From: Liolophura sinensis
Lineage: Eukaryota; Mollusca; Polyplacophora; Chitonida; Chitonidae
DNA length: 64,000 nucleotides
Reading direction: 5' to 3'
Assembly (NCBI RefSeq): GCF_032854445.1
Contig: NW_027017962.1
Location: 312,001-376,000 of the forward strand
A program made the translations under genes and the position numbers. The notes under the pieces were generated by a model. It was not told the DNA's origin. It did not search any database and saw only the letters and a program-made list of their open reading frames with translations. Numbering within the stretch: position 1 is the stretch's first letter; each line of letters starts with the position of its first letter. This document shows positions 23,301 to 59,230 of the stretch, one piece after another.

Positions 23301-26300
23301 GACCTGAATGATTTCACAAAGCCACAACCAACTTAGACCGATATTTTAAAATCCTTTAAAGACTTACTTTTGGAACTAAGTTTCAATTGTAATGAGTAGT
23401 ATCGGATGCTTCGAAGCAATAAATTCAGCGTTACAGCAAAGTGTTTACTTCAGACTACCTCGTCTTTGAAAATCAGGTGGTAAGTCCAGGTAGAGAAGTC
23501 CTCTCTCTGATCCACGTCTGTTACTTCCGTCTTGAATGGACCAAACTCCCCATTCTTGTCAGTCCAATATATACCCACGCTCTGTTGAACAGAAATAATA
23601 ACACAGTTCGCGTTCAGGTATTCCGGATATTATCAACGGTTTGTTAACAACATCACATATTTTGACATAAACGTTTTTTACTATCCACATTCTAGTTATT
23701 AGAGTGTAACACATACTGGTACCAACTGGAACACGCTGGTATCATCTGACATGAAACCGTTCACAAATCAATTTATTGGTAAAGTTTATTGGTACAGTTT
23801 GTTGGTACAGTTTGTTACAACAATCACAAGTTGGTTATCAATCAACCTGTACCAAAATTAAACTGATCAGTATCATGCTGTAACTGATCAGGATTAGACT
23901 GTAACTGATCAATATCACGCTGTAGCTGATCAGCATTAGGTTGTATTAATAAATTGTACTGCATGAAGGGACTGGCTTGGTGCCAACCTGGTGAAAGTTT
24001 GCTTACGCAGAAGGTAAGCCTTTTTCGGTCCACCTGTAGTTTTCAGTTGTTATTCTTAAAACATATCTATAGTTTATATGGTTATAGGACAATTGTGCCT
24101 GTCCACGCGCTGTGGCATTTACTTTTCGTTAAATAATGGAAGACCATATCTTTTACTTGAAATGTCGTTCTGATACACCCGGCGGTAAATAATCACATGT
24201 GGCTGTGTACAGAGGGCGGGTCCGCCGGTGGGGAGCCAGCGGCTCTACGAGAACCAGGCGATTTTGATATCGTTACTGATAGGGGTCGTTCACGCATACG
24301 TTCAAAAACCTCACACACAGAAACAACCCAAGTATTTACTCTCTTGTTTCCTGCATTTGTTTCCTGGCAATATACATAACTACAGGCCACGCTCGGCTAA
24401 CCTTATCCCTTGGATCGGCGTGGTCTGACATGATGATGGTACGGACGCCGTGATCGTACACCAAGCGCCAAAAGTCCACCACCGTGATTGGGAGAGGCGT
24501 CTGGGTGAGGATAAAGCCTCTCTTCTTTCTGTATCCCTACAACAGACAAGATACGTGTGACCGAATGGATGGCAGCACATCGCTAACAAAATCACAAATG
24601 TTTGACAATGAAAAGAGCGCAGCTTACCGGAAGAAAGACGGCGTTGATGTAGTCGTTACAGCCACTCACTGGCGTCGATAGATACGGTCTGTACCTATCC
24701 ACTGAAACAAAAGATTTGATTGGTTGCGGCATCGTTAAATATCACAGAAAAGTCTAAGAGTCTTGTTTCGTAAAACATATACGACGTTAAACCCCAAGCA
24801 CTCACTCACTCGTTAAACATAGTGGCGTGAATCATCCCTTTTCAGGGCTTGGAAAATGCCCTAAATTCACTCACTCATTCGTTAAACATTTTGGTGGTGG
24901 CGTGTGTGTGTGTAAAGTGTAACCTGTGTGTGTGTGAGAGGGGGGGGGGGGTGTCGTGTTTGCCAGATTTGATGACCAAACCTGCTAAGATCCTCTTGTT
25001 TCTGTTCTTGGGCAAGTTTTCTTTCAGACGGGCTGATTTTTGGCTGGTTTCGTCAAGCTGAGGTGAGACTTCCCCCAGAATCTGCACAATAAAATGTATC
25101 ATTAAGGAATCGATGTGAATCAAATGTCCAACTTTTACCATATTCTTAGTTCTTGATGAGCACATTTGCTCTTAATAAACTATCGTTTTACGTGTAAATC
25201 AGCTATGCTATATTTTATCTTAGTAACGTTTATCGGTTACCTATATCGCATAAATAGCGTAGCAATCACTTGTTTCATTTTTTTTCTTTAATTGGGGTAT
25301 TTTGTAGATAATCTGAGCATGCCTGACGCTGTCATTTTATCACTAGGCATGACACCACCTTTCACTTAATGTCACTTGGGAAACACAGCATGGGCGGCCA
25401 GACAACCACAATCCAGGCCGTTCATGCACAAGCCACCAACTGAGTACAACTGGCTGAACAGCTTTCAGAACCATTTAGCACGACTACGGGGCCACACTGT
25501 CGGCCAGAACCGCAATACAGGGATAAGCCCTGAAACAAGCGTTTCCTTGCCACTCGGACGGGAAGGAATTGTTGGGTAGTATATATAAACCCCAAATCTA
25601 TGCTGGCTGCTGAGAAATATACATTAGGATTCCAACAATTCCTGTGTTGTTCAGTTTTCACACCTTTCCCAAGGACCGTGATACGGTTATCAATATTCTA
25701 GAGAAGTTAAGAAAGCTCCTTTTCTACGGTATACTCGTCATTACTACAACACATGCATCTACCTCTCGGTTACTTTCATTAAGAATGAATGATTTTCAAA
25801 TCATTTAAATTTTTTAACACTAATCTGTAATAAATAGATGCAAAATCATTTTTTATTGCAACTGTTTCTCTCATGGTGACAAAACTTTGTTGTTTTGAAT
25901 CGATTATAGTCACAACGATGTAACGGACCTTGAACTGTGCCGCCATTTTGGGTTGTTCAGTCACGGGGTCGATGGTGCAAAGGTCAAAGTACACGGCGGC
26001 AAAGTTCACAGTCGGGATGGAACTGTTGTTCAGTTTCAGGGCTTCTGCCAGAGCCTCGTGAAGAAACTCATACTGTTCCTGACAAAATAACAAAATGCAC
26101 AGATTTGTAAGATTTCACTACATTTGGAGTGTTTACATATCACGCCTGTAAGCATTGTTAGAATTACCATTAAACAATAAAGGCTGTAAAACCATAACGC
26201 CCTCAGGGTTTATATATATAGGGGTTAGAATTACCTGTGTCTGCACCATATTAACTCGCTGTTGTCTGAGAAGTTCCACACAGGCCGGCACATCTACCAT

Positions 26301-29300
26301 TCCCTCCGCCTTAGCCTGATTGATCAGGTAGTCCAGAGCGATGAACGTCCCCGTCCGTCCGATTCCGGCACTGTTATAAGACAAAAGCTTACATGATATT
26401 GAAATGGGAAAACAATACATTTGTAGGCATGGCAGTGTAAGGTTAGCGTTAACAGGACGACAACACTGATTATAGACATATGAAGCTATGGTACATTCAA
26501 CCTCGTCCAGGACAACTTCGTGGAACCTATCGCCGTGGCGACCGTGTGTGAAGAACTCTTAATCTACAGCTGTACTATAAGCATATGCATAACTGACAAA
26601 TTTAAGAAACAAAACGAAACAATTAAAGAACAAAACTGACCAATAACGCAAATACCTATGCATTCTGTGAATACTATATATATATCCGTTGTAAGAAAGA
26701 TAAAAAAAGGCCTTGAATGCACTCACCTAGTCTGAACCTCATACTTATAAATTCTATAACGGAAACCACGCCAATGAAATTGACTTCATTGTTCACACCG
26801 TGTAAGCTATACAACTGTATACCTGCAATGGACGACAATTGGTCCAGGCAAGTTCGAGCTGTGCTCCACAACCTTGTCCCGGAAGTCGAGAAGCACGGAG
26901 GCGTCGGAGGGAGCGCCGTGGTCTGGCCAGGCCGTGAAGTGGAACTGTGTGAGAATCTTGGGCTTACTCTATAAAGACACAAGGAAGTACATGAGACCGA
27001 TGTACAACTGGACGGATAAAATAGGAGTGGTGAACTATGCCTCAGAACTCCCAAAGGTAGATCTTGTGTAAGAGTCCCGTGTTCGAATCTAGCTGCCGCC
27101 GGCTATACGGGAGCCTTCAGTACGAACAAATTGTATGTACTGCCGAACACTGGTATGGTCTGCTTACAGCTCCAACTGATATACCGTAACTAAAACACCT
27201 GACCGCCAACAGGTTAAAAGTAAGATAAATTCAAGTCAGTTATTAAATAAAGATTTTCTATGCACTCGGTAGAGTTTTCCGAGGGAAAATTCTTGTGCTT
27301 TAACTGAAGTACTCAATTTCCTTGCGCGGTAACATATATAAATAGTGCGCCAGTTTACCTCAGTTCGTTCTGTCCTCTGCTTATTCCAGCTGCTTAACAC
27401 ATAGTCTGTCTTACCATTAAGGTAGCAGTTACACCTAATACTGGTGTTGAGGGACCTACCATGGCGTTACTCAGCTGCACAGTCCTAATGTTATAATTAG
27501 CGTACAACTCCTCATTCAGTAATGTCACTTCAATCACACCAAACTTTGTGGAGCCCTCGGTCGGCCAGTACTGGTTACACTTTTTCTACAATGTCGACAA
27601 GTACAATTTTCATTCAAAGAAGAATTATACATTTATATACGTACTAAAAACAGGGTTTGCAATGGTACTTAATGAGTTACTAATGGTATAGGTAAATGTA
27701 TTAATTTTATTGCAGCTACCGAAATATGTGTGCCATTTCAACTTTCAGTCACGTATTCAACACTTGATATCTATATTTATTATGTAGGATGTGCTACTAT
27801 GCGTTCCATACTGCCATAACTTACTGTGACTTAAAGTGTAAATTAGGGTGACTTACCTTGGTGTCCTCAACTAAGTTTGTTACCATGACAACTGTGCCAA
27901 CGTTCTGTTCCCAGATCATGCGCATAAAGTCGTTTATGATAAGGTCAGTGGGCTCTTTCACAAATATAAAAATAACACAACGATTGATCTTGGGTCATTT
28001 AACATTGGCTTTGGCTGACTATTGGTATACACATCTCTGTTATGACGGCCTAAATATACACGGCAACATGGACTTACTAGTAATTACTGAGTGTGCACCA
28101 ACCAATAATGACAGACGTTTTCACAACAGACGGCATTTAGTTAAATGTAAAGCCCCATTAATAGTAGGCCCCACATTCAGACCTTCGTGTATCACACATC
28201 AGTTAGAACATCACTAGCTCCTTGTATCACGCTTCAGTTAGAACATTCCGACCCTCCCTTATCACGCTTCAGACAAAACATTCCTTCTTCGACCTTCCCT
28301 ATCACGCTTCAGTCAGGACATTCCGACCTTCGTGTATCACGCGTCAGTCAAAATATTCCGACCTTAACGTATCACGCGTCAGTCAGGACATTCCGACCTT
28401 TATGTATCACGCGTTTGTCAGCACATTCCTACATTCGTGTATCACGTGTTTGTCAGGGCATTCAGACCTTGGCGTATCACACTTCAGTTAGGACATCCCT
28501 ACCTTCGTGCATCACGCGTTTGTCAGGGCATCCTGACTTTGCCGTATCACGCGTTTGTCGGGACATTCCGACCTTGTAGTATCACGCATTTGTCAGGATA
28601 TTTCGTCCTTGGCGTATCAAACTTCAGTTAGGACATCCCTACCTTCGTGTATCAAGAGCTTGTCAGGACATTCCGACCTTGGCGTATCACACTTCAGTTA
28701 GAACAGTAAGTTACAATGAATAAACAGAAGCAAATATCTTACGCTGACTTTAACAGAAATTCGCAGTTGTCGTGCAGGCTTTAGAGAAATCCGAATAGAA
28801 TGGATTACCATTGTCCTTTTCACACCTATCACTGATCTTTTTCTAAAACTTTATTGAGATCCTAAAAATCTAAAAAAATAGTACATTTCAGTTATTCATA
28901 TCAGAAACTGCTGCATAAAATAATGTTATTATATACTTTCTGCTGGTGTATAGCAGTGGCTCTTGTGGCTGGTCGAATGGAAATACACGTAGGACAGGTG
29001 TTTTTTGCATGATTTGCACCTTTCGATCAAAATGGATCTAGAGCTCAAACGTATTCACTGAATTAAAATTCTGCAAGTCGCACCGAGTTAGAACATCTTT
29101 ATGATGGACATTTTCATGCTGACGTGAGATAAAGGATACGGAACACTGTCAAGTTTTGACGAGAAAAAAACGGTGAAAACACTTTTTTCAACCTGCAATT
29201 CCTTAACAGGAAAGACTGAAAGAACTAATTCTCGAAATCGTGATTAAAGGAGACGAAGTGGTCTATCGTTCAATCGGAGTGCGTATCAGACTGAAGGCGA

Positions 29301-32300
29301 CTGACATGTCTGTCCCAGCAGTGGAGAATGTGAAACTGAAAATTGAGTGATCAGACAGACATGCGAGTGTTACCTGCTCGAACTCAATCCCGGGACCTCG
29401 CTGTCCTTACACAACTATTTATTTGATTGGTATTTTACGCCCTACTCAAGACTATTTCACTTATACTACAGCGGCCAGTATTATGGTTGGAGGAAACCGG
29501 GCAGAGCTCGGGGGAAACCCACGACAATCTGCAGGTTGCTGAAGACCTTCACACGTAGGCACACACAACTATGGGTTTTTAATCGCTAAACACTAATCTA
29601 CAGGTGCAACCTGAAGTTAGTATTTATTTCTTTAACATCAATGTGTTAAGGTGTTTTTATTTCTTTTGTTAATTTATTGTTTTGGCCTCAATAAGGAAAT
29701 CCTACCCAAAGAAAACCGGCATTGAAATGCAAATTTTGTACAATATGTGTTCTAACCACAACTTCCTCCTTCTCTAAATCATGACATAAAAAGGTCCAAA
29801 ACTGCATAAAATTGACCGAAATGAACAATGTTGCATTCTTAGTTGGCAGCAGCATCTACAACAATGCCAAAATTGACAATTTGTTACAAACCAATATATA
29901 CTCGTACATGTTTAAAACGTGTTTTATAAAGATATTAATTTTGTAAAGGTATTAATATTTGGACAGGTTTGATGCATCAGCTATGAGCCATATCCTGACC
30001 TTACCATCTCACTTACTTTTCGCAGATATCGTTAAGGCCAAACTGACTGATGTTTATGAACAAAACGTACTTACCTTGAGATGCGATGAACCTCTTTGGC
30101 TTCTCAAATCCCTGTGGTGAAATTAACACAAAATTATCTGCATACCAACGGGTAGAATCGGAATTTATTAATAACCATTGCCAAATTTCTTATAACTTTC
30201 TCAGTTTTCATCTCATGTTGAATTAACGGTGTAAACCGGTTACGCTGAAAAATTGACAGTAAACTACATGTGGCTATGTAATTATCTTGATATATCTGGG
30301 CACAGCGCACGCAGAGCTTTGTTAATTAATCCCCACAAATGTGACGGTAGGTGATTTTATAAAGTTTTACGAAAAGAGTAATGCATAATACTGGTAATAC
30401 CATAATCAAAAAGACCTGGAAAAGAATAGTGCCTAATACTGGTAATACCAGAATCAAAAAGACCTGGAAAGGAATAGTGCCTAATACTGGTGATACCTGA
30501 ATCAAAAAGACTTGGAAAAGAATAGTGCATAATACTGGTAATTCGTGAATCAATAAGACCCAGAAAAGAATAATGTCTAATACTGGTAACACGTGAAGCA
30601 ATAAGTTCCAGAAAAAATAGTGCATAACACTGGTAATAAGTTAATCAATCAGACCCATAAAGGTATAGCGCCTAACACTCGTAATACGTCAATCAATAAG
30701 ATGAGGAAACGAATCATGGGGTATAGATTTTAGCCACGTTTTGTCATCTTAGTCACTCAAAATAGACGATGACAATTATGCTTTGTGTCTGTGACATTCA
30801 GTGTGGTGACATTGGCGGTTGGCTTAGTGTTTGTATCTTGTGTATGTCATGCAGTGTAATGATATTGGCGACTGGCTTTGTCTCCGCATGTTGTATTTGT
30901 CATTCAGTGCTGTGACACGGGCTACTGGCTTTATGTCTGTATACTGTATTTGTCATTCAGAGAGACCTTGACGACTGGCTTTATGTCTGTATCTTGTATA
31001 TGTTATTCAGTGTAGTTACCTTGACGACTGGCTCTGTGTCTGCATATTGTATTTGTTACTCCAGCCGTAAGTGGGAAGGTCTGCCAGCCATCTGCGGTTG
31101 GTCGTGGGTTTCCCACGGGCTCTGCCCGGTTTCGTCCCACTGTAAAGCTGGTCGCCGTCGTATAAGTGAAATATTCTTGAGTACGGCGTAAAACACCAAT
31201 CAAATAAATAAATAAATGTTTGTCATTCAGTGAGACCTTGACGACTGACTTTGTGCCTGCATCTTGTCAAGATCTCACTGAATGACATTGAAGACATTGG
31301 CGACTGGCTTTATGTTTGTATCTTGTATATGCCAGTCAGTGTAGTGACAATGACGACTGGCTTGTATCTTGTATATGTCATGGGGTGTAGTGACATTGAC
31401 GCCTGGCTTTGTGATTGTATGTTGTATTTGTTAAACATTGTAGTGAACTTGACGACTGGCTTTGTGTATATATCTTGAATATGCCATTCAGTGTAGTGAC
31501 AATGACGACTGGCTTTGTGTCTGTCTCTTGTATATGTCATTCAGAGAAGTGACCTTGATGGCTAATTTTGTGTTTATATCTTGTATATGCCAATCAGTGT
31601 AGTTACCATGACGACTGGCTTTGTGTCTGTATCCTGTATATGTTATTCTGTGTAGTGACCTGGAGGACTAGCTTTTTGTTTTTGTCTTGTATATGTCATG
31701 GGGTGTAGTGACCTGGAGGACTAGCTTTTTGTTTGTGTCTTGTATATGTCATGGGGTGTAGTGACCTGGAGGACTAGCTTTTTGTTTTTGTCTTGTATAT
31801 GTCATGGGGTGTAGTGACCTGGATGACTGGCTTTTTGTTTGTGTCTTGTATATGTCATGGGGTGTAGTGACCTGGAGGACTAGCTTTTTGTTTTTGTCTT
31901 GTATATGTCATGGGGTGTAGTGACCTGGAGGACTAGCTTTTTGTTTGTGTCTTGTATATGTCATGGGGTGTAGTGACCTGGATGACTGGCTTTTTGTTTG
32001 TGTCTTGTATATGTCATGGGGTGTAGTGACCTGGAGGACTAGCTTTTTGTTTGTGTCTTGTATATGTCATGGGGTGTAGTGACCTGGAGGACTAGCTTTT
32101 TGTTTGTGTCTTGTATATGTCATGGGGTGTAGTGACCTGGAGGACTAGCTTTTTGTTTTTGTCTTGTATATGTCATGGGGTGTAGTGACCTGGAGGACTG
32201 GCTTTTTGTTTGTGTCTTGTATATGTCATGGGGTGTAGTGACCTGGAGGACTAGCTTTTTGTTTTTGTCTTGTATATGTCATGGGGTGTAGTGACCTGGA

Positions 32301-35300
32301 GGACTAGCTTTTTGTTTGTGTCTTGTATATGTCATGGGGTGTAGTGACCTGGAGGACTGGCTTTTTGTTTGTGTCTTGTATATGTCATGGGGTGTAGTGA
32401 CCTGGAGGACTGGCTTTTTGTTTGTGTCTTGTATATGTCATGGGGTGTAGTGACCTGGAGGACTAGCTTTTTGTTTGTGTCTTGTATATGTCATGGGGTG
32501 TAGTGACCTGGAGGACTGGCTTTTTGTTTGTGTCTTGTATATGTCATGGGGTGTAGTGACCTGGAGGACTAGCTTTTTGTTTGTGTCTTGTTTATGTCAT
32601 GGGGTGTAGTGACCTAGATGACTGGCTTTTTGTTTGTGTCTTGTTTATGTCATGGGGTGTACTGACCTGAAGGACTGGCTTTTTGTTTGTGTCTTGTATA
32701 TGTCATGGGGTGTAGTGACCTGGAGGACTAGCTTTTTGTTTGTGTCTTGTATATGTCATGGGGTGTAGTGACCTGGAGGACTAGCTTTTTGTTTGTGTCT
32801 TGTTTATGTCATGGGGTGTAGTGACCTGGATGACTGGCTTTTTGTTTGTGTCTTGTATATGTCATGGGGTGTAGTGACCTGGAGGACTAGCTTTTTGTTT
32901 GTGTCTTGTTTATGTCATGGGGTGTAGTGACCTGGAGGACTAGCTTTTTGTTTGTGTCTTGTATATGTCATGGGGTGTAGTGACCTGAAGGACTGGCTTT
33001 TTGTTTGTGTCTTGTATATGTCATGGGGTGTAGTGACCTGGAGGACTGGTATTTTGTTTGTGTCTTGTTTATGTCATGGGGTGTAGTGACCTGGATGACT
33101 GGCTTTTTCTTTGTGTCTTGTTTATGTCATGGGGTGTAGTGACCTGGATGACTGGCTTTTTGTTTGTGTCTTGTATATGTCATGGGGTGTAGTGACCTGG
33201 AGGACTAGCTTTTTGTTTGTGTCTTGTATATGTCATGAGGTGTAGTGACCTGGATGACTGGCTTTTTGTTTGTGTCTTGTTTATGTCATGGGGTGTAGTG
33301 ATATTGACGACTGGCTTTGTGTCTGTATCGTGCACCGGTTATTCAGTGTAGTGACACTGACGACTGGCTTTTTGTTTGTATCTTGCATATGTCATGGGAT
33401 GTAGTGATATTGAGGGCGGGCTTTGTGTTTGCATCTTGTATATGCCAATCGGTGTAGTGACATTGGTGACTGTCTTCGTGTCTGTATCTTGTATATGTCA
33501 TTCGGTGTATAAACCTTGACGGCTGGCTTTGTGTATGTATGTTGTATTTGTTATTCATTATAGTGAGCTAGACGGCTGACTTTCTGTGGGTATCTTGTAT
33601 TCGTCATTCAGAGTAGTAACCTTGATGGCTGACTTTGTGTGTGTCTCTTGTATTTGTCATTCAGTGTAGTGAACTTCATGGCTGGCTTTATGCCTGTATC
33701 TTGTATGTCTTTCAGCCTAGTGATCTTGAAGACTGACTTTGTGTGTAATGACACGGACGATTGGCTTTATGTCTGTATTGTGACGTAATTTGCTATCGAG
33801 GTTATGCCTAGTGCTGTTTTCGTAAGTACCCGAGGTCGCGTGGTTGGTAAGTAAAAGATGCTAAAACGTTCAGTTAAATTCTGCTTTCCTGAGTTCATTT
33901 ATTGACAACTTGTGCACTCAACAAACTCGTTTAAAGACGAAACATGGTGTCCGAAGTAGAAAGGACTCTCGTCCTACTGCGTGATGTTCCAGAGACTATC
34001 TACTCTCGTCGAACGACTCTCTCCATGCGCTACGTCGGATCAGCGATGTCGGATTTATTGTGAGTGAGTGATTTTTCCCCTTCGATAGTGCTCAATCTGA
34101 TTGTTTTGTCAGTAAACAGAGGCGCAACAATTAACTTTACCTGCTTTGTTAAAGTTTCTGAGGAATATTCAGAAGTGCGAATCGAGAAACTGTGACCTTT
34201 CTGTGTGCTTTCCTGTCTGCAACGCTGTATGGTGTTGTTGTGCCGACCAAACTACGGAAACGCGTTTGGAACATTTCACATGTGTGATAGTCTACAGCGA
34301 CGTGGTTGGCCAGTAAAAGATGCTAAAATGTTCAGTTAAATTCTCCTTTCATTTATTGACAACTTGTGCACTCAACAAACTCGTTTAAGGACGATACATG
34401 TATGTTGCATTTGTCATTCAGTGTTGTGACACGGGCGACTGGCTTTATGTCTGTATTTTGTTGATGTCATTCAGAGAAGTTACCTTGACGGCTAGCTTTG
34501 TTTATGTATGTTGTATTTGTCATTCAGAGAAGTTACCTTGACGGCTAGCTTTGTTTATGTATGTTGTATTTGTCATTCAGTGTAGTGACCTTGACGACTG
34601 GCTTTGTGTCTGTCTCCTGTATTTGTCATTAAGAGAAGAGACCTTGACGGCTGGCCTTAGGTATATATCTTGAATATGTCATTCAGTGTAGTGACAATGA
34701 CGACTGGCTTTGTGTCTGTCCCTTGTATTTGTTATTCAGTGTAGTGACGATGACGACTGGCCTTGTGTATATATCTTGACAATGACATTCAATATAGTGA
34801 CAATGTCGACTGGCTTTGTGTCTGTCTCTTGTATTTGTCTTTCAGTGTAGTGACAATGACGACTGGCCTTGTGTATAAATCTTGAATATGCCGTTCAGTG
34901 TAGTGACAATGACGACTGGGCTTGTGTATATATCTTGAATATGCCATTCAGTGTAGCGTCGATGACGACTGGCTTTGTGTCTGTATCTTGTATTTGTCAT
35001 TCAGTGTAGTGACGATGACGACTGGCTTTGTGTATATATCTTGAATATGTCATTCAGTGCAGTGACAATGACGACTGGTTTTGTGTATGTATCTTGAATA
35101 TGTCATTCAGTGCAGTGACAATGACGGCTGGCTTTGTGTCTGTATCTTGCATTTGTCATTCAGTGCAGTGACAATGACGACTGGCTTTGTGTATATATCT
35201 TGAATATGTCATTCAGTGCAGTGACGATGACGACTGGCTTTGTGTATGTATCTTGAATATGTCATTCAGTGCAGTGACAATGGCGGCTGGCTTTGTGTAT

Positions 35301-38300
35301 ATATCTTGAATATGCCATTCAGTGCAGTGACAATGACGGCTGGCTTTGTGTATATATCTTGAATATGCCATTCAGTGCAGTGACAATGACGGCTGGCTTT
35401 GTGTATGTATCTTGAATATGTCATTCAGTGCAGTGACAATGACGGCTGGCTTTGTGTATATATCTTGAATATGTCATTCAGTGCAGTGACGATGACGACT
35501 GGATTTGTGTATGTATCTTGAATATGTCATTCAGTGCAGTGACAATGACGGCTGGCTTTGTGTATATATCTTGAATATGCCATTCAGTGCAGTGACAATG
35601 ACGGCTGGCTTTTTGTATATATCTTGAATATGTCATTCAGTGCAGTGACGAAGACGACTGGCTTTGTGTATGTATCTTGAACATGTCATTCAGTGCAGTG
35701 ACAATGACGGCTGGCTTTGTGTATATATCTTGAACATGCCATTCAGTGCAGTGACAATGACGGCTGGCTTTGTGTATATATCTTGAATATGTCATTCAGT
35801 GTAGTGACAATGACGGCTGGCTTTGTGTATATATCTTGAATATGTCATTCAGTGCAGTGACAGTGACGACTGGCTTTGTGTATATATCTTGAATATGTCA
35901 TTCAGTGCAGTGACGATGACGACTGGCTTTGTGTATGTATCTTGAATATGTCATTCAGTGCAGTGACAATGACGGCTGGCTTTGTGTATATATCTTGAAT
36001 ATGTCATTCAGTGCAGTGACAGTGACGGCTGGATTTGTGTATATATCTTGAATATGTCATTCAGTGCAGTGACAATGACGGCTGGCTTTGTGTATGTATC
36101 TTGAATATGTCATTCAGTGCAGTGACAATGACGGCTGGCTTTGTGTATATATCTTGAATATGTCATTCAGTGCAGTGACAATGACGGCTGGCTTTGTGTA
36201 TATATCTTGAATATGTCATTCAGTGCAGTGACGATGACGACTGGCTTTGTGTATATATCTTGAATATGTCATTCAGTGCAGTGACAATGACGACTGGCTT
36301 TGTGTATATATCTTGAATATGTCATTCAGTGCAGTGACGATGACGGCTGGCTTTGTGTATATATCTTGAATATGTCATTCAGTGTAGTGACGATGACGAC
36401 TGGCTTTGTGTATGTATCTTGAATATGTCATTCAGTGCAGTGACAATGACGGCTGGCTTTGTGTATATATCTTGAATATGTCATTCAGTGTAATGACGAC
36501 TGGCTTTGTGTATCAAGTGACCTTGATGGCTTGCTTTGCGTCCGTATCTTGAATATGCCATTCAGTGTAGTGACCTTGAAGGCTGGGTTTCTGTGGGTAT
36601 CTTGCATTTGTCATTCAGAGAAGTGACCTTGACGGCCGATTTTGTGTCTGTCTCCTGTATTTGTGATTTAGTGCTCTGACCTTTACGACTGGCTTTGTGT
36701 CTGTATCTTGTAATTGTTATTCAGTGTAGTGACAATGACGGCTGACTTTGTGTCTGTCTCCTGTATTTGTGATTTAGTGCTGTGACTGTGACGGCTGACT
36801 TTGTGTCTGTATCTTGTATTTGTTATTCAGTGTAGTGACAATGACGGCTGGCTTTGTGTCTGTCTCCTGTATTTATCGTTCAGTGTAGTGACCTTGACGG
36901 CTGTTTTTTTTTATCTGATACTTATCATGGATAATGATATAATCCCACTGTCTGTTTGTATTCTATTCACATTAATTTTCTGGGCGTTGATACAATCCGA
37001 CTGTCTGTTTGTGTTCTACTCACAATAATGTACGAGGCCTTTCATATGATCTGTCTGTCGGTTTGTGTTCTAGTCACATTAATATACGAGGAGTTGATAG
37101 AATCCGTCTGTCCATTGGTGTTCTACTCACAATTATACAAGAGGCGTTGATATCATATTTCTGTCTGTTTGTGTTCTCTTCACATAATTATACGAGGGGT
37201 TGATATAATTCGTCTGTCTGTTTGTGTTCTCGTCACATTAATATATGAGGGGTTGATAGAATCCGCTTGTCCATTGATGTTCTACCCACAATTATACAAG
37301 TGGCGTTGATATAATCTTTCTGCCTGTTTGTGTTCTCTTCACATTAACGAGGGGTTGATACAATCCGCCTGTCTGTTTGTGTTCTATTCACATTAATATA
37401 CAAGGGGTTGATAGAATTCGTCTGTCTGTTTGTGTTCTATTCACATTAATATATGAGGGGTTGATATAATTCGTCTGTCTGTTTGTGTTCTGTTCGTATT
37501 AATATACGGGGTGTTGATATAATCCGACTGTCTGTTTGTGTTCTATTCACATAATTATACGAGGCGTTGATATAATTCGTCTGTCTGTTTGTTTTCTATT
37601 CACATTAATATACGAGGCGTTGATAGAATCCGACTGTCCGTTTGTGTTCTCTTCACATTAATATATGAGGGGTTGATATAATTTGTCTGTCTGTTTGTGT
37701 TCTCTTCACAGTAATATACGAGGCGTTGATATAATTCGTCTGTCTGTTTGTGTTCTATTCACATTAATATACAAGGCCTTGATATAATCTGTCTGTCTGT
37801 TTGTGTTCTCTTCACAGTAATATACGAGGCGTTGATAGAATCCGACTGTCCGTTTGTGTTCTATTCACATTAATATACGAGGCGTTGATATAATTCGTCT
37901 GTCTGTTTGTTTTCTATTCACATTAATATTCGAGGCGTTCATAGAATCCGACTGTCCGTTTGTGTTCTATTTACATTAATATACGAGGCGTTCATATAAT
38001 TCGTCTGTCTGTTTGTTTTCTATTCACATTAATATATGAGGGGTTGATATAATTCGTCTGTCTGTTTGTGTTGCGTTCACATTAATATACGAGGCGTTGA
38101 TAGAATTCGCCTGTCTGTTTGTGTTCTATTCACATTAATATATGAGGGGGTTGATGGAATCCGTCTGTCGGTTTGTGTTCTGTTCACATTAATATATGAG
38201 GGGCTGATAGAATCCGTCTGTCTGTTTGTGTTCTTTTCACATTAATATATGAGGGGTTGATATAATTCATCTGTCTGTTTGTGCTCTACTCACATTAATA

Positions 38301-41300
38301 TACGAGGCCTTGATATAATCTTTCTGCCTGTTTGTGTTCTCTTCACATTAATATACGAGAGGTTGATAGAATCCGACTGTCCGTTTGTGTTCTATTCACA
38401 TTAATATACGAGGCGTTGATATAATTCGTCTGTCTGTTTGTTTTCTATTCACATTAATATACGAGGCGTTGACATAGCCCGACTGTCTGTCTGTGTTCTA
38501 CTTACATTAATATACGAGGCGTTGATATAATCCGACTGTCCACTTTTGTTCGAGGGTTTTAGAACCACGCGCGAATGGTCGTCTGAAAGTAGAGGTCATG
38601 TAAACATAATATACACCCGACGAATTATATTCGTTGCAAACCTGTAAAGAAACTGACAAGAGTTTGGCATGACACATCGTCAATTCTGAAAAACTGCACG
38701 TACAAAATACTTTGAATTCTTGTGTCACCCCTACAGAGAGAATATTCCAGGGCAAATGCAAAATTAAAAAACAAATGTGATGCCCGACATATTGTCAATT
38801 TCGTATTTACATGTTAACCAAAGATAAAAACTGCACATGGCAAACAATTAGAGTTGTAGAGAGGACATGAAGCTATGCCTGATCACATGACGGACAAAGG
38901 ATTACTGTATATCATGTTGCCATGGTAACGACAGATATGGAGATCTGAGAGATACAACACATCGTAACATCTGTATCTATGTATGCACCAAACACTAAAA
39001 CTCCCCATGTAAAACAATTGGAACTGTAGCTCAGACAAGAAACCATACCCAGTGATATAGTACATATGTAGACAACGACAATTGATACATTTTACAACCA
39101 TAAAAATGGACAAATGTGAGGCGTCTACGTCTGTGTATCCACCACAACTCAGACCTATACATATGCTACATATTAGCCTTACAGCCAAGACACGAAGCAA
39201 TATATATTTAATTACAGAGTGATTGTTGCTATTGCAACTAGTTTTATTACGGCTCCCTTCAAAGACAGCTTGCTTATGAACGACAGAACAGAAAATGCTC
39301 ACATGCTACTAGATTTTTGTATCGACTCTTGATTTTGTTGCATGGCAGATCTGCCACGTCGTGCTTTGCCTGTAACCCCGCAGGAAATTTCTGAAAAATT
39401 TGAAATCATGTGAAAAAAGTCTGTATAAAATAGAAAACTGGTATATTTAGGAAGCCGACTTCTTCAAACCTAAGAAAACCTGAATGAGGAGTTCTCTGCA
39501 TGTAATATGCCATAGTATTGCTACCATTATCTGTCATGTCACAAAACATCACATCACAGGCCTCCATACATATAATTATATCACACATTTATTTCGTTAT
39601 TCTATTAATTTGTGCTTTAAAAGTTGCACAACACTACTTCGCTTGTAGAACAGCCGGCAGGTTACTGGTGCAAGTTTTTCTGGTAGGGGTTTACTGGTGC
39701 AGGTTTCCTGGTGGGGTTTACTAGTGCAGGTTTATTGCTGAGGGTTTACTGGTGCGGGTTTACTTTTGCAGGTTTACTGGTGCCAGGTTTACTTTTGCAG
39801 ATTTACTGGTACGGGTTTACTGGTGCAGGTTTACTGGTGCGGGTCTACTTTTGCACGTTTTACTGGTACGGGTTTACTTTTGCAGGTTTACTGGTGGGAT
39901 TTACTAATGCGAGTTTACTGGTGCGGGTTTACTGGTGCACGTTTACTGGTGCAGGTTTACTGGTGCCAGGTTTACTTTTGCAGATTTACTGGTACGGGTT
40001 TACTGGTGCAGGTTTACTGGTGCGGGTCTACTTTTGCACGTTTTACTGGTACGGGTTTACTTTTGCAGGTTTACTGGTGGGATTTACTAATGCGAGTTTA
40101 CTGGTGCGGGTTTACTGGTGCACGTTTACTGGTGCACGTTTACTGGTGGGGGTTTACTGGTGCACGTTTACTGGTGGAGGTTTACTGGTGGGGGTTTACA
40201 GGTGCAGGTTTACTGGTGCAGGAAACATATTAGAGCGCAGTGAAGATTACCGTCCTTGGATTTGCCTTGCCACGCTCACGTTCTCTTGTGCTATGTTGAC
40301 ATCAGTACAGTAGTTGATGGACGTGTTTTTAACGTGTTTAGCGGTACACACAATAATGTCTCACTTATATGAATGCGGTTAGTTTTATGGATGGACGAAA
40401 TCGGAGTTGCTGGGGGAAACCACCGAAAAGCAAGAAAAGCTTTCCCACTTCTGACGTTGTAATATGCACAACTTCAACAAACGCGGGTAAGCAAATTGGG
40501 CCCGTCAGCTCTGTTGATTGCTTATTATTGACAAAGCCCAACAGACAGTGAGAGCACAACACATGTCCTTATGTGTCGTTAACCACCCGGCCACCGCCCT
40601 CTTCCCTAAAACATGTAAAACAGCTATATCCCCACCTCCCCAGCTTACAGCGTATTCGGCGCTGAATCCATCAGAGGCTTTTTTCCTGTGATAATATTCC
40701 CAAAACTCGCCCACAGACACGACAGTTGTGATTGGATTCTCATAGGGTAGAGCGTCATCTGCTTCATTCATCTGAACTTGTACATTATCTGCATGGAGCC
40801 CTGACAATGGAAGGGTCAAAGGTCAGGCTCGGATTGTTCACATGCATAAAGTGGGAAATCTTCAACGATATAGCGTATAAACAATCAGTGTATACAAACA
40901 ATACATCTAACAAATTTCCAAAGATGAGAAAGACGTGGGTTTGTTTAAAATATTTGATAACAAATGATGCTCGGATTGAAATTGATCCATTTGCACCGGC
41001 CATGTACAGATGTGGACAAGAGCAGTTGTATTATGAACTGTACCTCTGTTTTCCATGCCAATAGCGTGGTTTTCCGGTCTATCTGCCTGGTTCCTGGACA
41101 AACATAACGACCTGTCATTGCTGGATGACGAGCTGCGCCTCCTTTCAGGAGTGTCGTAAATAGTAAAAGGTGCAAAAGAAATAAATAAACTTTAAAAACC
41201 ATAAAAAACAGAAGTTGGAAAATCGGTGTTATCTGGACAGAAGCACGATGAATAATGTTGGTTCGACTTAAACCTTCCTGGTACAGCCGCAACCTAAAGA

Positions 41301-44746: not shown

Positions 44747-45433
44747 ATTGTAATCGTTCTGTTTTTTCTTATTATTATTATTATTATTATTTTTTTTTCA
44801 CCGACTTTGTTCGCATGGAAACTTTTTTACCGTTTAACATACAGGTCTGAAATTTTGCACACATATTCTGGCGGTGAATACCTCGGGACAAATTCTCCAC
44901 TTTTTTGCCATGTCACGTGGTTCGGACGCCATATTGGATTTTGTGTAAAATCTTTAAAAATCTTCTTCTCCAGAACCACTGAACCGATCGGTTTCAAATT
45001 TGACATGCTGCTAGTAAGTTACGAGTTCTTTAAAGTTTGCGAAAATGGTTCACTTCCGGTCAAAATTCTGGAAGTTCGCTATTGGTCGAATTTATGACGT
45101 CACAAAAAGTTCTCAAAGTTCATTTGTTCTGAATGCATTCTGGTGTATCTTGAGCTGCTGATTCTGAATCTGCTTGTATTTTTTGCATATCTGTGTAACT
45201 TTCTGAGATATTAGCAAAAAACTCAAAAAAGTGACGTAACTTCAATGACCTGTAACTCGAGATCTGTGGAAGCTAGAAATGTGCAACCTGCACGAAATTG
45301 TAGCCCAAGACATGCTCTTTCGAGCATTCGTCAACAGATTTGAGCTCCGATCAACAGTTTTTTCGCTACAAGCGTTTAAATCACAACACCGTTTTTTGTT
45401 TAGAAAAAGGTGCTAATCCTATTGCTTTAACAT

Positions 45434-45550
45434 GGAGTTAGATGGGGACTGGACTGGGTTTGTAGTATTTGACCTGATGCTTTCGGCTACACTGTCCGTG
45501 ATCTCCCGAAACGGTTGTAGGATGACATTGATTCCAGTTCCCATCTAACT
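45434..45550. other. Internal inverted repeat conserved in each unit
   Basis: TGGAGTTAGATGGGGA and TTCCCATCTAACTCCA flank a ~85-base interior holding CACTGTCCGTGATCTCCCGA. The pair recurs in essentially every unit of the array (for example 46818-46937 and 48131-48251). Confidence 0.85.
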
Positions 45551-47650
45551 CCAGTACTCTATTAGATGGCGTAGAGATCTAACTACAACAGCAAACGACA
45601 TGGACCTGTAAAAGTTAGCTTTGTTTTGCGCAGACCTCGTGCTCTTTACTATACGTTAAACAATCCAGGGTGATTAACAAATATGGATATGTGAACTGGT
45701 CCAAGTGCTGACTTTCTAACGATGGCCGAGCTATGAGTGGAATAGTGAGTCTGTGCATGGCATGTCGTGGATTGAGATGTGAATGTACAAACTTGCTGTT
45801 ACACTGGTCGTGTTTTTGCCTTATTTCTTACAATTAGCGGGCTAAGTCTGCCAAGGAACGACCGTTTTTCACTGGGCATAGCGTAGCATCATTAAGGTCG
45901 CCAATCTATTCGAGGGAATGGAAATGACCGGCCGACTGCCTCAATGGCGAAAGGTGTAAGGTCGCATGGAAACTTTGAAAGCCGTGTATGTGGAACATGT
46001 GTCCTTCGAACACAGAACATGAAGGGGAAAACTTCATCGATCCGATCCGGGATCCCGGCCTAGGATCTGCTATTCGCAGATCCATTCTAGTTAGGGATCC
46101 CGTTCTCCCGAACGGGATCCCTATTGTAATCGTTCTGTTTTTTCTTATTATTATTATTATTATTATTATTATTTTTTTTTTTTCACCGACTTTGTTAGCA
46201 AGGAAACTTTTTTACTGTTCAACATACAGGTCTCATATTTTGCACACATATTCTGGCGGAGATTTTCCAGGGATAAATTCTCCATTTTTTTTTCATGTCA
46301 CGTGGTTCGGCCGCCATATTGGATTTTGTGTAAAATCTTTAAAAATCTTCTTCTCCAGAACCACTGAACCGATCGTTTTCAAATTTGACATGCAGCTAGT
46401 AGGTTACGAGTTCTTTAAAGTTTGCGAAAATGGTTCACTTCCGGTCAAAATTCGGGAAGCTCGCCATTGGTCGAATTTGTGACGTCACAAAAAGTTCTCA
46501 AAGTTCAATTGTTCTGAACGTATTCTGATGTATCTTGAGCTGCTGATTCTGAATCTGCTTGTATTTTTTGCATATCTGTGTAACTTTTTGAGATATTAGC
46601 AAAAAACTCAAAAAAATTACGTAAGTTCAATGACCTGTAACTCGAGAACTATGGCAGCTAGAAATGTGCAACCTGCACGAAATTGTAGAACAAGACATGC
46701 TCTTTCGATCACTCGTCAACAGATTTGATCTCGGATCAATAGTTTTTTCGCTAGAAGCGTTTAAATGACAACACCGTTTTTTGTTCAGAAAAAGACGGGA
46801 ATCCTATTGCTTTAACATGGAGTTAGATGGGGACTGGACTGGGTTTGTAGTATTTGACCTGATGCTTTCGGCTACACTGTCCGTGATCTCCCCAAACGGT
46901 TGTAGGATGACATTGATTCCATTTCACATCTAACTCCAGTACTCTATTAGAGGGCGTAGAGATCTAACTACAACAGCAAACGACGTGGACCTGTAAAAGT
47001 TAGTATTGTTTTGCGTAGACCTTGTCCTCTTTACTATACGTTAAACAGACCAGGGAGATTGACAGATATGGATATGTGAACTGGTCCTAGTGCTGACTTT
47101 CTAACGATGGCCGAGCTATCAGTGGAGCAGTGAGTCCGTGCATGGCAGGTCGTGGATTGAGATGTCAATGTACAAACTTGCTGTTACACTGGTCGTGTTT
47201 TTGCGTTATTTCTTACAAATAGCGGGCTAAATCTACCAAGAAACGGCCGTTTTTAACCGGGCATAGCGTGGCATCATTAGGGTCGCCGATCTATTCGAGG
47301 GAATACAAATGACCGGCCGACTGCCTCAGTGACAAATGGTGTAAGGTCGCATGGAAACTTTGAAAGCCGTGTATGTGGAACATGTGTCCTTCGAACACAG
47401 AACATGAAGGGGAAAACGTCATCGATCAGATCCGGGATCCCGGCCTAGGATCTGCTATTCGCAGATCCATTCTAGTTATTATTATTATTATTTTTTTTTC
47501 ACCGACTTTGTTCGCATGGAAACTTTTTTACCGTTCAACATACAGGTCTGAAATTTTGCACACATATTCTGGCGGTAAATATCTCGGGACAAATTCTCCA
47601 CTTTTTTGCTATGTCACGTGGTTCGGACGACATATTGGATTTTGTGTAAA

Positions 47651-47681
<31 letters not shown>

Positions 47682-50600
47682 GAACCGATCGGTTTCAAAT
47701 TTAACATGCAGCTAGTAAGTTACGAGTCCTTTAAAGTTTGCGAAAATGGTTCACTTCCGGTCAAAACTCTGGAAGTTCGCTATTGGTCGAAATTGTGACG
47801 TCACAAAAAGTTCTCAAAGTTCAATTGTTCTGAACGTATTCTGATGTATCTTGAGCTGCTGATTCCGAATCTGCACGTATTTTTTGCATATCTGTGTAAC
47901 CTTTTGAGATATAAGCAAAAAACTAAAAAAGTGACAGAACTTGAATGACCTGTAACTCGAGAACTATGACAGCTAGAAATGTGCAACCTGCACGAAATTG
48001 TAGCCTAAGACATGCTCTTTCGAGCATTCGTCAATGGATTTGAGCTGCGATCGATAGATTTTTCGCTACAAGCGTTTAAATGACAACACCGTTTTTTGTT
48101 TGGAAAAAGGTGGAAATCCCATTGCTTTAACATGGAGTTAGATGGGGACTGGACTGGGTTTGTAGTATTTAACCTGATGCTTTCGGCTACACTGTCCGTG
48201 ATTTCCCGAAACGGTTGTAGGATGACATTGATTCCAGTTCCCATCTAACTCCAGTACTCTATTAGAAGGCGTAGAGATCTAACTACAACAGCAAATGACA
48301 TGGACCTGTAAAAGTTAGCTTTGTTTTGCGCAGACCTCGTGCTCTTTACTATACGTTAAACAGTTCAGGGTGATTGACAGATATGGGCATGTGCCGTGGT
48401 CCAAGTGCTGACTTTCTAACGATGGCCAAGCTATCAGTGGAGCTGTGAGTCTGTACAAACTTTGTGTTGCACTAGTCGTGTTTTTGCATTATTTCTTACA
48501 ATTAATGGGCTAAGTCTGCCAAGGAACGACCGTTTTTCACTGGGCATAGCGTAGCATCATTAAGGTCGCCGATCTATTTGAGGGATTGCAAATGACCGGC
48601 CGACTGCCTCAGTGACAAACGGTGTAAGGTCGCATAGAAACTTTGAAAGCCGTGTATGTGGAACATGGGTCCTTCGAACACAGATCATGAAGGGAAAACG
48701 TCATCGATCAGATCCGGGATCCCGGCCTAGGATCTGCTATTCGCAGATCCATTCTAGTTAGGGATCCCGTTCTCCCGAACGGGATCCCTATTGTAATCGT
48801 TCTGTTTTTTCTTATTATTATTATTATTATTTTTTTTTCACCGACTTTGTTCGCATGGAAACTTTTTTACCGTTGAACATACAGGTCTGAAATTTTGCAC
48901 ACATATTCTGGCGGTGAATACCTCGGGACAAATTCTCCACTTTTTTGCCATGTCACGTGGTTCGTGCGCCATATTGGATTTTGTGTAAAATCTTTAAAAA
49001 TCTTCTTCTCCAGAACCACTGAACCGATCGGTTTCAAATTATACATGCTGCTAGTAAGTTACGAGTTCTTTAAAGTTTGCGAAAATGGTTTACTTGCGGT
49101 CAAAATTCTGGAAGTTCGCCATTGGTCGAATTTATGACGTCACAAAAAGTTCTCAAAGTTCAAATGTTCTCAACGTATTCTGGTGTATCTTGAGCTGCTG
49201 ATTCTGAATCTGCTTGTATTTTTCGCATATCTGTGCAACTTTTTGAGATATGAGCAAAAAACTCAAAAAAGTGACGTAACTTCAATGACCTGTAACTCGA
49301 GATCTGTGGGAGCTAGAAATGTGCAACCTGCACGAAATTGTAGCCCAAGACATGCTCTTTCGAGCATTCGTCAACAGATTTGAGCTCCGATCAATAGTTT
49401 TTTTGCTACAAGCGTTTAAATGACAACACCGTTTTTTGTTTAGAAAAAGGTGCTAATCCTATTGCTTTAACATGGAGTTAGATGGGGACTGGACTGGGTT
49501 TGTAGTATTTGACCTGATGCTTTCGGCTACACTGTCCGTGATCTCCCGAAACGGTTGTAGGATGACATTGATTCCAGTTCCCATCTAACTCCAGTACTCT
49601 ATTAGATGGCGTAGAGATCTAACTACAACAGCAAACGACATGGACCTGTAAAAGTTAGCTTTGTTTTGCGCAAACCTCGTGTTCTTTACTATACGTTAAA
49701 CAATCCAGCGTGATTAACAAATATGGATATGTGAACTGGTCCAAGTGCTGACTTTCTAACGATGGCCGAGCTATGAGTGGAGCAGTTAGTCTGTGCATGG
49801 CATGTCGTGGATTGAGATGTGAATGTACAAACTTGCTGTTACACTGGTCGTGTTTTTGCTTTATTTCTTACAATTAGCGGGCTAAGTCTGCCAAGGAACG
49901 ACCGTTTTTCACTGGGCATATCGTAGCATCATTAAGGCCGCCAATCTATTCGAGGGAATGGAAATGACCGGCCGACTGCCTCAATGGCGAAAGGTGTAAG
50001 GTCGCATGGAAACTTTGAAAGCCGTGTATGTGAAACATGTGTCCTTCGAACACAGAACATGAAGGGGAAAACTTCATCGATCCGATCCGGGATCCCGGCC
50101 TAGGATCTGCTATTCGCAGATCCATTCTAGTTATTATTATTATTATTATTTTTTTTTCACCGACTTTGTTCGCATGGAAACTTTTTTACCGTTTAACATA
50201 CAGGTCTGAAATTTTGCACACATATTCTGGCGGTGAATACCTCGGGACAAATTCTCCACTTTTTTGCCATGTCACGTGGTTCGGACGCCATATTGGATTT
50301 TGTGTAAAATCTTTAAAAATCTTCTTCTCAAGAACCACTGAACCGATCGTTTTCAAATTTGACATGCTGCTAGTAAGTTACGAGTTCTTTAAAGTTTGCG
50401 AAAATGGTTCACTTCCGGTCAAAATTCTGGAAGTTCGCTATTGGTCGAATTTATGACGTCACAAAAAGGTCTCAAAGTTCAAACGTTCTGAACGTATTCT
50501 GGTGTATCTTGAGCTGCTGATTCTGAATCTGCTTGTATTTTTTGCATATCTGTGTAACTTTTTGAGATATTAGCAAAAAACTCAAAAAAGTGACGTAACT

Positions 50601-53023
50601 TCAATGACCTGTAACTCGAGATCTGTGGGAGCTAGAAATGTGCAACCTGCACGAAATTGTAGAACAAGACATGCTCTTTCGAGCATTCGTCAACAGATTT
50701 GAGCTCCGATCAATAGTTTTTTCGCTACAAGCGTTTAAATGACAACACCGTTTTTTGTTTAGAAAAAGGTGCTAATCCTATTGCTTTAACATGGAGTTAG
50801 ATGGGGACAAAACTGGGTTTGTAGTATTTGACCTGATGCTTTCGGCTGCACTGTCCGTGATCTCCCGAAACGGTTGTAGGATGACATTGATTCCAGTTCC
50901 CATCTAACTCCAGTACTCTATTAGATGATGTAGAGATCTAACTACAACAGCAAACGACGTGGACCTGTAAAGGTTAGCTTTGTTTTGCGCAGGCCTCGTG
51001 CTCTTTACTATACATTAAACAGGCCAGGGTGATTGACAGATATGGACATGTGCTGCGGTCCAAGTGTTGACTTTCTAACGATTGTCGAGCTATCAGTGGA
51101 GCTGTGAGTCTGTACAAACCTCCTGTTACACTGGTCGTGTTTTAGCGTTATTTCTTACAAATAGCGGGCTATGTCTGCCAAAGAACGACCGTTTTTCACT
51201 GGGCATAGCGTAGCATCATTAAGGTCGCTGATATATTCGAGGGAATGCAAATGACCGGCCGACTGCCTCAGTGACAAACGGTGTAAGGTCGCATGAAAAC
51301 TTTGAAAGCGGTGTATGTGGAACATGTGTCCTTCGAACACAGATCATGAAGGGGAAAACGTCATCGATCCGATCCGGGATCCCGGCCTAGGATCTGCTGT
51401 TCGCAGATCCATTCTAGTTATTATTATTAGGGATCCCGTTCTTCCGGAACGGGATCCCTATTGTATTCGTTCTGTTTTTTAGGGATCCCGTTCTCCCGAA
51501 CGGGATCCCTATTGTAATCGTTCTGTTTTTTCTTATTATTATTATTATTATTTTTTTTTCACCGACATTGTTCGCATGGAAACTTTTTTACTGTTCAACA
51601 TACAGATCCCAAATTTTGTACACATTTTCTGGCGGTGAATATCTCGGGACAAATTCTCCACTTTTTTGTTATGTCACGTGGTTCGGCCGCCATATTGGAT
51701 TTTGTGTAAAATCTTTAAAAATCTTCTTCTCCAGAACCACTGAACCGATCGTTTTCAAACTCGACATGCAGCTAGTAGGTCACGAGTTCTTCAAAGTTTG
51801 CGAAAATGGTTTACTTCCGGTCAAAACTCTGGAAGCTCGCCATTGGTCGAAATTGTGACGTCACAAAAAGTTCTTAACGTTCAATTGTTCTGAACGTATT
51901 CTGATGTATCTTGAGCTGCTGATTCCGAATCTGCCTTTACTTTTTACATATCTGTGTAACTTTTTGAGATATCAGCCAAAAAATCAATAAAGTTACGTAA
52001 CTTCAATGACCTGTAACTCGAGAACTAGGACAGCTAGAAATGTGCAACCTGCACGAAATTGTAGCCCAAGACATGCTCTTTCGATCATTCGTCAATGGAT
52101 TTGAGCTCCGATCAATAGTTTTTTCGCTACAAGCGTTTAAATCACAACACCGTTTTTTGTTTAGAAAAAGGTGGGAATCCAATTGCTTTAACATGGAGTT
52201 AGATGGGGACTGGACTGGGTTTATAGTATTTGACCTGATGCTTTCGGCCAAACTGTCCGTGATCTCCCGAAACAGTTGTAGGATGACATTGATTCCAGTT
52301 CCCATCTATCTCCAGTACTCTATTAGAAGGCGTAGAGATCTAACTACAACAGCAAATGACATGGACCTGTAAAAGTTAACTTTGTTTTGCGCAAGCCTCG
52401 CCCTCTTTACTATACGTTAAACAGTCCAGGGTGATTAACAGATATGGACATGTGCCCTGGTCCAAGTGCTGACTTTCCAACGATGTTGTTTTTGCCTGAT
52501 TTCTTACAATTAGCGGGTTAAGTCTGCCAAGGAACGACCGTTTTTCACTGGGCATATCGTAGCATCATTAAGGTCGCCGATCTATATGAAAGAATGCAAA
52601 TGACCGGCCGACTGCCTCAGTGACAAACGGTGTAAGGGTCGCAAGGTAACTTTGAAAGCCGTGTTTGTGGAACATGTGTCCTTCGAACAAAGATCATGAA
52701 GGGGAAAACGTCATCGATCCGATCCGGATCCCGGCCTAGGATCTGCTATTCGCAGATCCATTCTAGTTCTTATTATTATTATTATTATTAGGGATCCCGT
52801 TCTCCCGAACGGGATCCCTATTGTAATCGTTCTGTTTTTTCTTATTATTATTATTATTATTATTTTTTTTTCACCGACTTTGTTCGCATGGAAACTTTTT
52901 TACCGTTTAACATACAGGTCTGAAATTTTGCACACATATTCTGGCGGTGAATACCTCGGGACAAATTCTCCACTTTTTTGCCATGTCACGTGGTTCGACG
53001 CCATATTGGATTTTGTGTAAAAT

Positions 53024-53054
<31 letters not shown>

Positions 53055-57143: not shown

Positions 57144-57174
<31 letters not shown>

Positions 57175-59060: not shown

Positions 59061-59198
59061 GGACATGCAGGGGAAATGTCATCGATCCGATCCGGGATCC
59101 CGGCCTAGGATCTGCTATTCGCAGATCCATTCTAGTTATTATTATTAGGGATCCCGTTCTCCCGAACGGGATCCCTTTTGTAATTGTTCGGTTTTTTC

Positions 59199-59230
<32 letters not shown>

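Follow-up and report, generated by a model that had tools for sequence, protein, structure and literature searches.

A minisatellite spanning an exon-intron junction of receptor tyrosine-phosphatase genes in the chiton Liolophura sinensis

We analysed a 64,000-nucleotide stretch of DNA (the window) from the chiton Liolophura sinensis (RefSeq assembly GCF_032854445.1, contig NW_027017962.1, positions 312,001 to 376,000). On its minus strand lies a receptor protein-tyrosine phosphatase (PTP) gene, one intron of which opens with a tandem array of 53-bp units, each carrying the end of the preceding coding exon together with its 5' splice site (donor). The anatomy of the array, its founder exon, its restriction to four of 41 paralogous loci, the period and phase that these four share, and the difference in exon-proximal unit number between two nearly identical copies were observed directly. 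The array is very probably an intronic minisatellite of the type called 'mirage' in amphioxus, which arose by a junction-spanning duplication in an ancestral receptor-PTP gene and is one of many seeded by chance.

The founder exon and the 53-bp array

The founder exon (Table 1) encodes a 26-amino-acid segment of D1 that includes the motif SDYINASYI. Its 3' end is AAT, not AG, and it is preceded by an acceptor and followed by GTAAGT, at the position given in the original prediction. Catalytic pieces of D1 were found on successive minus-strand exons, PIVVHC and then a 16-residue piece, and the signature HC..AGIGRTG is present. The same gene has a second PTP domain, and a PF00102 match lies at window positions 26235-26375.

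The original prediction had claimed that the end of this exon and its donor were amplified into a 53-bp array of about 30 copies. This was confirmed by Tandem Repeats Finder (TRF), whose array has its last 35 bases inside the exon, and by the boundary segment (34 exon and 8 intron nt), which recurs in the window at up to 39/42 identities compared with a maximum of 28/42 in 50 shuffles. Copies of the segment at 70% identity or more occupy 26 places in the window. The in-phase unit consists of the last 34 nt of the exon and the first 19 nt of the intron; the mixed exon and intron content had been predicted correctly, the exact split (about 35 and 18) slightly off. About 29-30 such units open the intron, where the exon part is first repeated 19 nt beyond the donor, in keeping with the predicted start a few bases past the exon. 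Most in-phase units match the exon unit at 43-48 of 53 positions, and two match at 37 and 39. The tandem units (34 + 19 nt) span the exon-intron boundary, and the array is contiguous with its authentic source exon, the periodicity continuing from the exon end into the intron.

Four other 53-bp arrays lie in the same intron. As homologues of the exon-derived unit they were rejected, since similarity was undetectable both by shuffling and with a profile: rotated global scores were within the shuffled range for all four (the observed score was equalled or exceeded in 123-251 of 500 shuffles), and the exon-unit profile gave only chance-like scores (3.5 bits at most) beyond position 36909. In the equivalent intron of the C14 paralog, TRF reports the exon-derived array, a short 6/18-bp repeat and no other.

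Many units carry splice signals at each of the four PTP loci that have the array (the window, C230, C23:254k and C14). In the window, 27 of the 30 segmented units (the 30th is a degenerate edge) keep GT at the donor position, four have GT with G at +5, and none is identical to the real donor. GT is kept by 29/30 decoys at C230, 28/28 at C23:254k and 17/24 at C14; it is accompanied by +5G in 8, 6 and 15 of them, and identity to the real donor is found in 0, 0 and 5, respectively. Pairing with the 5' end of U1 was calculated at -5.1 kcal/mol for the real donor of the window, compared with mostly -1.7 kcal/mol for its decoys. Selection for dead decoys as a rule is not supported, because the C14 copy retains live-looking donors. 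Decoy 1 adds 53 nt and would shift the frame, as had been predicted. When reading continues past the exon, a TGA ends at +57 in each of the four PTP copies, so that any decoy beyond the first includes a stop. Decoy use would thus damage the product, and tolerance of the array should come from a preference for the first donor.

Table 1. Features of the array-bearing part of the receptor-PTP gene, with window coordinates
Feature	Position	Strand	Remarks
Founder exon, 77 bp coding, receptor protein-tyrosine phosphatase D1	38506..38582	-	acceptor CTACTTTCAG, donor GTAAGT; 77/77 identical in C23:254k and C230
Presumed authentic 5' splice site GTAAGT (AAT/GTAAGT)	38500..38505	-	position matches most of the 41 paralogous exons
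53-bp tandem array, 30.3 copies	36935..38540	-	TRF score 2081; 38506-38540 of the span is the exon itself
Array-holding intron, 8394 bp	30112..38505	-	equivalent in the C14 paralog is 1702 bp
Other 53-bp arrays, same intron	30795-31056, 31362-33706, 34401-36497, 36516-36903	-	related among themselves
Next coding exon, 12-aa peptide	30075..30111	-	acceptor TTTCACCACAG, donor GTAAGT

Paralogous loci, age and turnover of the array

The genome searched comprised 632 contigs and 609,464,459 bases. For assembly GCA_032854445.1 the available part of its report gives 632 scaffolds and 609,495,693 bases (PMC11068029); the species was first called Liolophura japonica and later corrected to L. sinensis (PMC12441733). 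The receptor tyrosine-phosphatase family is greatly expanded, partly in tandem (contigs C7, C15, C3 and C23), with at least 151 PF00102 exon matches. A search of the genome with the 26-residue segment gave 42 exons, 41 of which (the window locus, L001, with L003, L004, L005 and L006-L042) were examined together with their downstream introns. The 42nd was outside this comparison and was used for exon mapping only. It lies in an intronless 891-aa frame on C13 (L043, C13:7957700-7960900), which may be a retrocopy and has two PTP domains and a transmembrane-like stretch.

The array was found at four of the 41 loci, on three contigs, and 37 were without it. In the 37 array-free loci the best boundary copy reached 20-23/42, no better than shuffles; at two of them (L028 and L040) the coding frame continues without an intron at that place. 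SDYINASYI or a close form is common to paralogous exons without arrays. Because 37 paralogous exons encode a similar motif and have no array, the exon motif is older than the array, and the predicted order, exon first, withstood the comparison. An adjacent founder exon, also predicted, is supported by the exon end common to the four array-bearing paralogs: the exon is identical at 77/77 positions across the window, C23:254k and C230, and that of C14 has seven changes in its first 42 nt and two in its last 35 nt.

These data also bear on the reverse direction, in which the exon end would have been built or overwritten from the array by gene conversion or exonisation. Over 34 nt the exon and the array hardly differ, as such a process would leave them. 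It is contradicted by the 37 array-free paralogs with their form of SDYINASYI, and the array-typical variants that were checked are absent from the four exons; we regard it as extremely unlikely. Gene conversion from the array into the exon, to which the original prediction had thought the exon might be exposed, is likewise not supported, the exon being the same in three copies and variants common in the array (such as GACGAATTATATC or CAACCCCTC) missing from all four.

At C14, the 53-bp unit and its phase are the same as at the other three loci, although its upstream intron, aligned with gaps, reaches only about 70% identity. The array therefore most likely existed before the C14 gene duplication. 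C14 units have a mean distance of 0.23-0.245 to those of other loci compared with 0.20 within C14, and for 15 of the 19 C14 units tested the nearest neighbour was only within C14. Judged from these sequences, the C14 units have diverged from the other loci since the duplication.

C23:254k and C230 are identical at 345 of 346 positions in the intron upstream of the exon, and are thus alleles or a very recent duplicate. When the two were matched by eye, C230 had two extra units right after the exon, both with GTGAGT; further differences occur within the array (31 units segmented at C230 and 29 at C23:254k). Array length, which the original prediction had marked for checking, does vary, and array instability is likely, to judge from the two proximal units by which these possibly allelic copies differ. 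Distal units are recognisably orthologous by eye among the window, C230 and C23:254k.

For in-phase 53-nt units having at least 38 identities (23, 25, 25 and 16 units in the window, C230, C23:254k and C14), identity to the exon unit was correlated with distance. It falls with distance in the window (rho -0.38, p 0.07), C230 (rho -0.54, p 0.005) and C23:254k (rho -0.46, p 0.02), and rises in C14 (rho 0.57, p 0.02). With three loci falling and one rising there is no general gradient.

Assembly is difficult where arrays or gene copies stand in tandem, and the coverage given in the available part of the assembly report is 14X (PMC11068029), so an artefact has to be weighed. The same source gives PacBio HiFi reads with a mean of 8,347 bases, which can span a 1.6-kb array. 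The array, moreover, is present at four loci on three contigs, with distal units recognisably orthologous at three, and an assembly artefact is hardly credible.

Proposed chance seeding, and donor arrays elsewhere in the genome

We propose that in the chiton lineage a local tandem duplication once covered the exon-intron junction (34 + 19 nt) of an ancestral receptor-PTP gene, and that the array then grew to about 24-30 units by replication slippage or unequal exchange. The copies would have been tolerated because the authentic donor comes first after the only acceptor-bearing exon, so that exon definition would keep choosing it, and also because most decoys of the window clade have lost the +5 G. 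Such arrays may be seeded by chance wherever this minisatellite-rich genome duplicates a donor-straddling segment; no dedicated mechanism or function would be needed.

Over 79.5 kb, the introns of the 37 array-free loci contain 19 arrays with three or more copies and a period of at least 20 (median period 38). Random seeding at this density would put about 0.9% of junctions inside a founding unit, or about 0.4 in 41 loci, an estimate of the order of magnitude only, since several of the 37 loci are close relatives. One origin, represented by four related loci, was observed. Chance seeding is enough for this frequency, and a special mechanism is unneeded, though not thereby disproved.

The genome was scanned for other donor arrays. 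Tandem triplets of the strong donor CAGGTAAGT gave 301 matches compared with 158 for the backwards motif, and tandem AAGGTGAGT gave 189 compared with 62; these totals are not array counts, because matches overlap inside arrays. The acceptor-like motif TGTTTGCAG was also in excess as tandem arrays (146 matches, backwards control 51), which leaves nothing donor-specific at this resolution. Splice donors might themselves promote the birth of arrays through R-loops, polymerase pausing or microhomology in GGTGAGT, junctions then being preferred seeds. The two- to threefold excess of tandem strong donors over the control is what such a process would give. Since acceptor-like arrays are in excess too, and chance at the array density of the sibling introns fits one origin in 41 loci, we think donor-promoted birth unlikely.

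From the matches listed, which were the first of each search, the 15 + 25 distinguishable donor arrays were taken (5' sides) together with 14 control arrays (both sides). Four of the 40 donor arrays (L046, L060, L066 and L069) were dropped because the array extends past the sequence end, leaving 36 evaluable. Open stretches of at least 20 aa running into the array were scanned with Pfam: the automatic rule gave 47 stretches from 28 arrays, and the eight arrays that gave none were counted as misses. Pfam families with E values no higher than 6.5e-6 were matched in eight arrays (GH31, TARSH_C, sulfotransferase, MH2, ankyrin, SLC6/SNF, signal peptide peptidase and CAMSAP CH). The TARSH_C match stops about 15 residues before the stretch end. 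A PDB search named RPC1 for the POLR3A array (L050, E 4.5e-9), which had no Pfam match, and SMAD2/3 for L059. In total 9 of the 36 donor arrays have a family-supported open stretch ending at the array.

The number rises to 11 with two peptides (L053 and L063) that were added by hand after the automatic rule had missed both, with matches to NCBIfam deoC (0.0023) and 7tm_1 (2.5e-5), the deoC member being assigned by the analyst. By the automatic register test their units hold no more than 0 and 4 exon nt; by eye, with an indel allowed, the units are exon-derived. Two matches were counted although below curated cut-offs, CAMSAP (26.6 bits, cut-off 27) and 7tm_1 (24.3 bits, cut-off 30.5). We first presumed L053 to be a deoxyribose-phosphate aldolase, for which the deoC support has an E of 0.0023, and took L070 to be LONP2-like, for which no family support was found. 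The PDB search gave nothing useful for the L053, L058 and L070 peptides. L058, L070, L073, L075, L076 and L077 are exon-like by eye, had no family match and were not counted. A stretch at L085 matched DUF6442 (0.0021) and FtsL_2 (0.0096) under the curated cut-offs; both were judged spurious and left out. L056 and L057, apparently copies of a single array, are not independent of each other. For the control arrays, sequence could be read on 25 of the 28 sides, and the 29 stretches read towards the array gave no Pfam match. One control array (L097, C9:14545100-14548300) has GCAG/GTAAGA units adjoining an open stretch and may be a junction-spanning array too.

With the assumed real donor chosen by the analyst from the open stretch, the first copied unit contains 13-40 exon nt in eight of the nine arrays, and only 5 in SMAD2/3. 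Identities over the exon part are 31/32 for POLR3A, 27/32 for GH31, 21/23 for ankyrin, 18/19 for the peptidase, 32/40 for CAMSAP, 15/15 for TARSH, 21/28 for the sulfotransferase and 10/13 for SLC6. The presumed real donors of POLR3A (CAGGTAAAT) and GH31 (CAGGTATGT) pair with U1 at -8.3 and -8.0 kcal/mol, and their decoys (five shown, the same strong motif as in the first scan) at -11.8 kcal/mol, stronger than the presumed real donors. The window shows the opposite, and there is no common rule on the strength of real donors relative to decoys. The GH31 array (L052, C1:26352000-26353700) has a 39-bp period, which is in frame, and the units read remain open, so decoy use there would insert 13-aa repeats. 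Taken together, the arrays examined among the matches listed suggest that junction-spanning arrays are a recurrent class in this genome. The PTP array is not one of a kind, in view of these similar arrays at other genes and of the amphioxus mirages.

Several points weigh against the proposed explanation. The match totals, overlapping as they do, are dominated by a few large arrays, and the controls represent the backwards form of the first motif only. By Pfam alone the difference between donor and control arrays is marginal (8/36 vs 0/14, p = 0.056) and, by stretch, modest (8/47 vs 0/29, p = 0.017); with POLR3A it is 9/36 vs 0/14 (p = 0.038), the PDB search having been confined to donor arrays. 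Use of the first donor is something that we infer from sequence. Finally, the neighbouring arrays of the window intron share the 53-bp period without detectable similarity, for which the proposal does not account.

The arrays could instead be functional, a ladder of decoy donors that tunes splicing by slowing or diverting the spliceosome or by producing alternative, longer exons, and that is kept by selection. The persistence of the PTP array in paralogs whose flanking intron has diverged far, the C14 decoys (15/24 with GT and +5G, 5 identical to the real donor) and the open, in-frame 39-bp units of GH31 could all be read in this way. Neutral duplication also yields persistence and open units, however, and 26 of the 30 window decoys are without GT with +5G. 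At every one of the four PTP loci the frame is shifted by decoy 1 and the TGA is taken in by those beyond it, and 37 of 41 paralogs manage without an array. We consider a functional ladder very unlikely.

Elsewhere in the window, positions 44800-60000 hold a satellite with a period of about 1.3-1.4 kb, in which minus-strand open stretches (e.g. ISTPSNRVLELDGNWNQCHPTTVSGDHGQCSRKH) recur every ~1.3 kb. It has short inverted GGGATCCCGTTCTCCCGAACGGGATCCC units and is absent from the TRF list, which is limited to 500-bp periods.

Relation to amphioxus mirages and significance

As described in the available portions of two papers, amphioxus mirages are minisatellite-like tandem duplications of exon-intron boundaries in Adh3, the globins BflGb6 and BflGb9 and troponin C, with PGBD5 as a less perfect case and with splicing reported as undisturbed (PMC3087553, PMC3902484). 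Like the chiton units, theirs hold an exon edge and an intron edge, many keep splice signals, and they adjoin the authentic exon. Copy number varies between haplotypes in amphioxus and differs between near-identical, possibly allelic copies in the chiton; the two BflGb6 haplotypes have 6 and 3 units, the chiton loci 24-30. The chiton array has the anatomical features of a mirage and is very probably a member of that class. It differs in belonging to a mollusc and not a cephalochordate, in having counterparts at several unrelated genes of one genome, and in that at two genes U1 pairing is stronger for the decoys than for the donor presumed to be real.

Human genes in segmental duplications have variable tandem repeats at exon-intron boundaries, on average four 30-bp units, which are described as capable of activating cryptic splice sites, as far as the available part of that study reports (PMC2812944). 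In both systems a minisatellite has expanded at a splice boundary of recent paralogs, but the human repeats lengthen exons or form new introns, whereas the chiton has about 30 copies inside an existing intron and an unchanged exon. Ordinary intronic minisatellites share the tandem array and the turnover of units; here, in contrast, the founder can be named, a coding exon under constraint together with its donor. In the Rogers model, in which introns are gained when AG/GT proto-splice sites are duplicated in tandem, as outlined in PMC3087553, duplication of a donor segment could likewise supply splice sites, but in the chiton no new intron or exon is seen and the copies lie within an existing intron. 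Among the papers listed in searches of the open-licence PMC literature, junction minisatellites appeared in the amphioxus papers and one human study, and we found no mention of them in molluscs; the available part of a report on an earthworm metallothionein with intron minisatellites (PMC12783039) does not mention exon copies.

A wider reading, which we hold to be unlikely, is that junction-spanning arrays form a genome-wide class of hundreds to thousands, and that in some genes (GH31, with in-frame 39-bp units, and POLR3A, with decoys but no presumed real donor that match U1 perfectly) the spliceosome has to ignore, or sometimes uses, many donors of equal or greater strength. If this were true, the arrays would form a natural library of competing 5' splice sites, changing in length between individuals and sometimes adding repeat-coded peptide loops to conserved enzymes.

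Mirages have so far been described as an amphioxus oddity, as far as the available portions of those papers go, and mollusc cases at several unrelated conserved genes would turn them into a class that can be measured. In every array one real donor naturally competes with the many near-identical or stronger decoys that follow it, with exon content, spacing and frame known and with a copy number that differs between near-identical copies. It thus becomes directly testable how proximity and exon definition act and what decoy 5' splice sites cost. The arrays also show how junction-spanning duplications, a proposed source of new introns, arise and persist.

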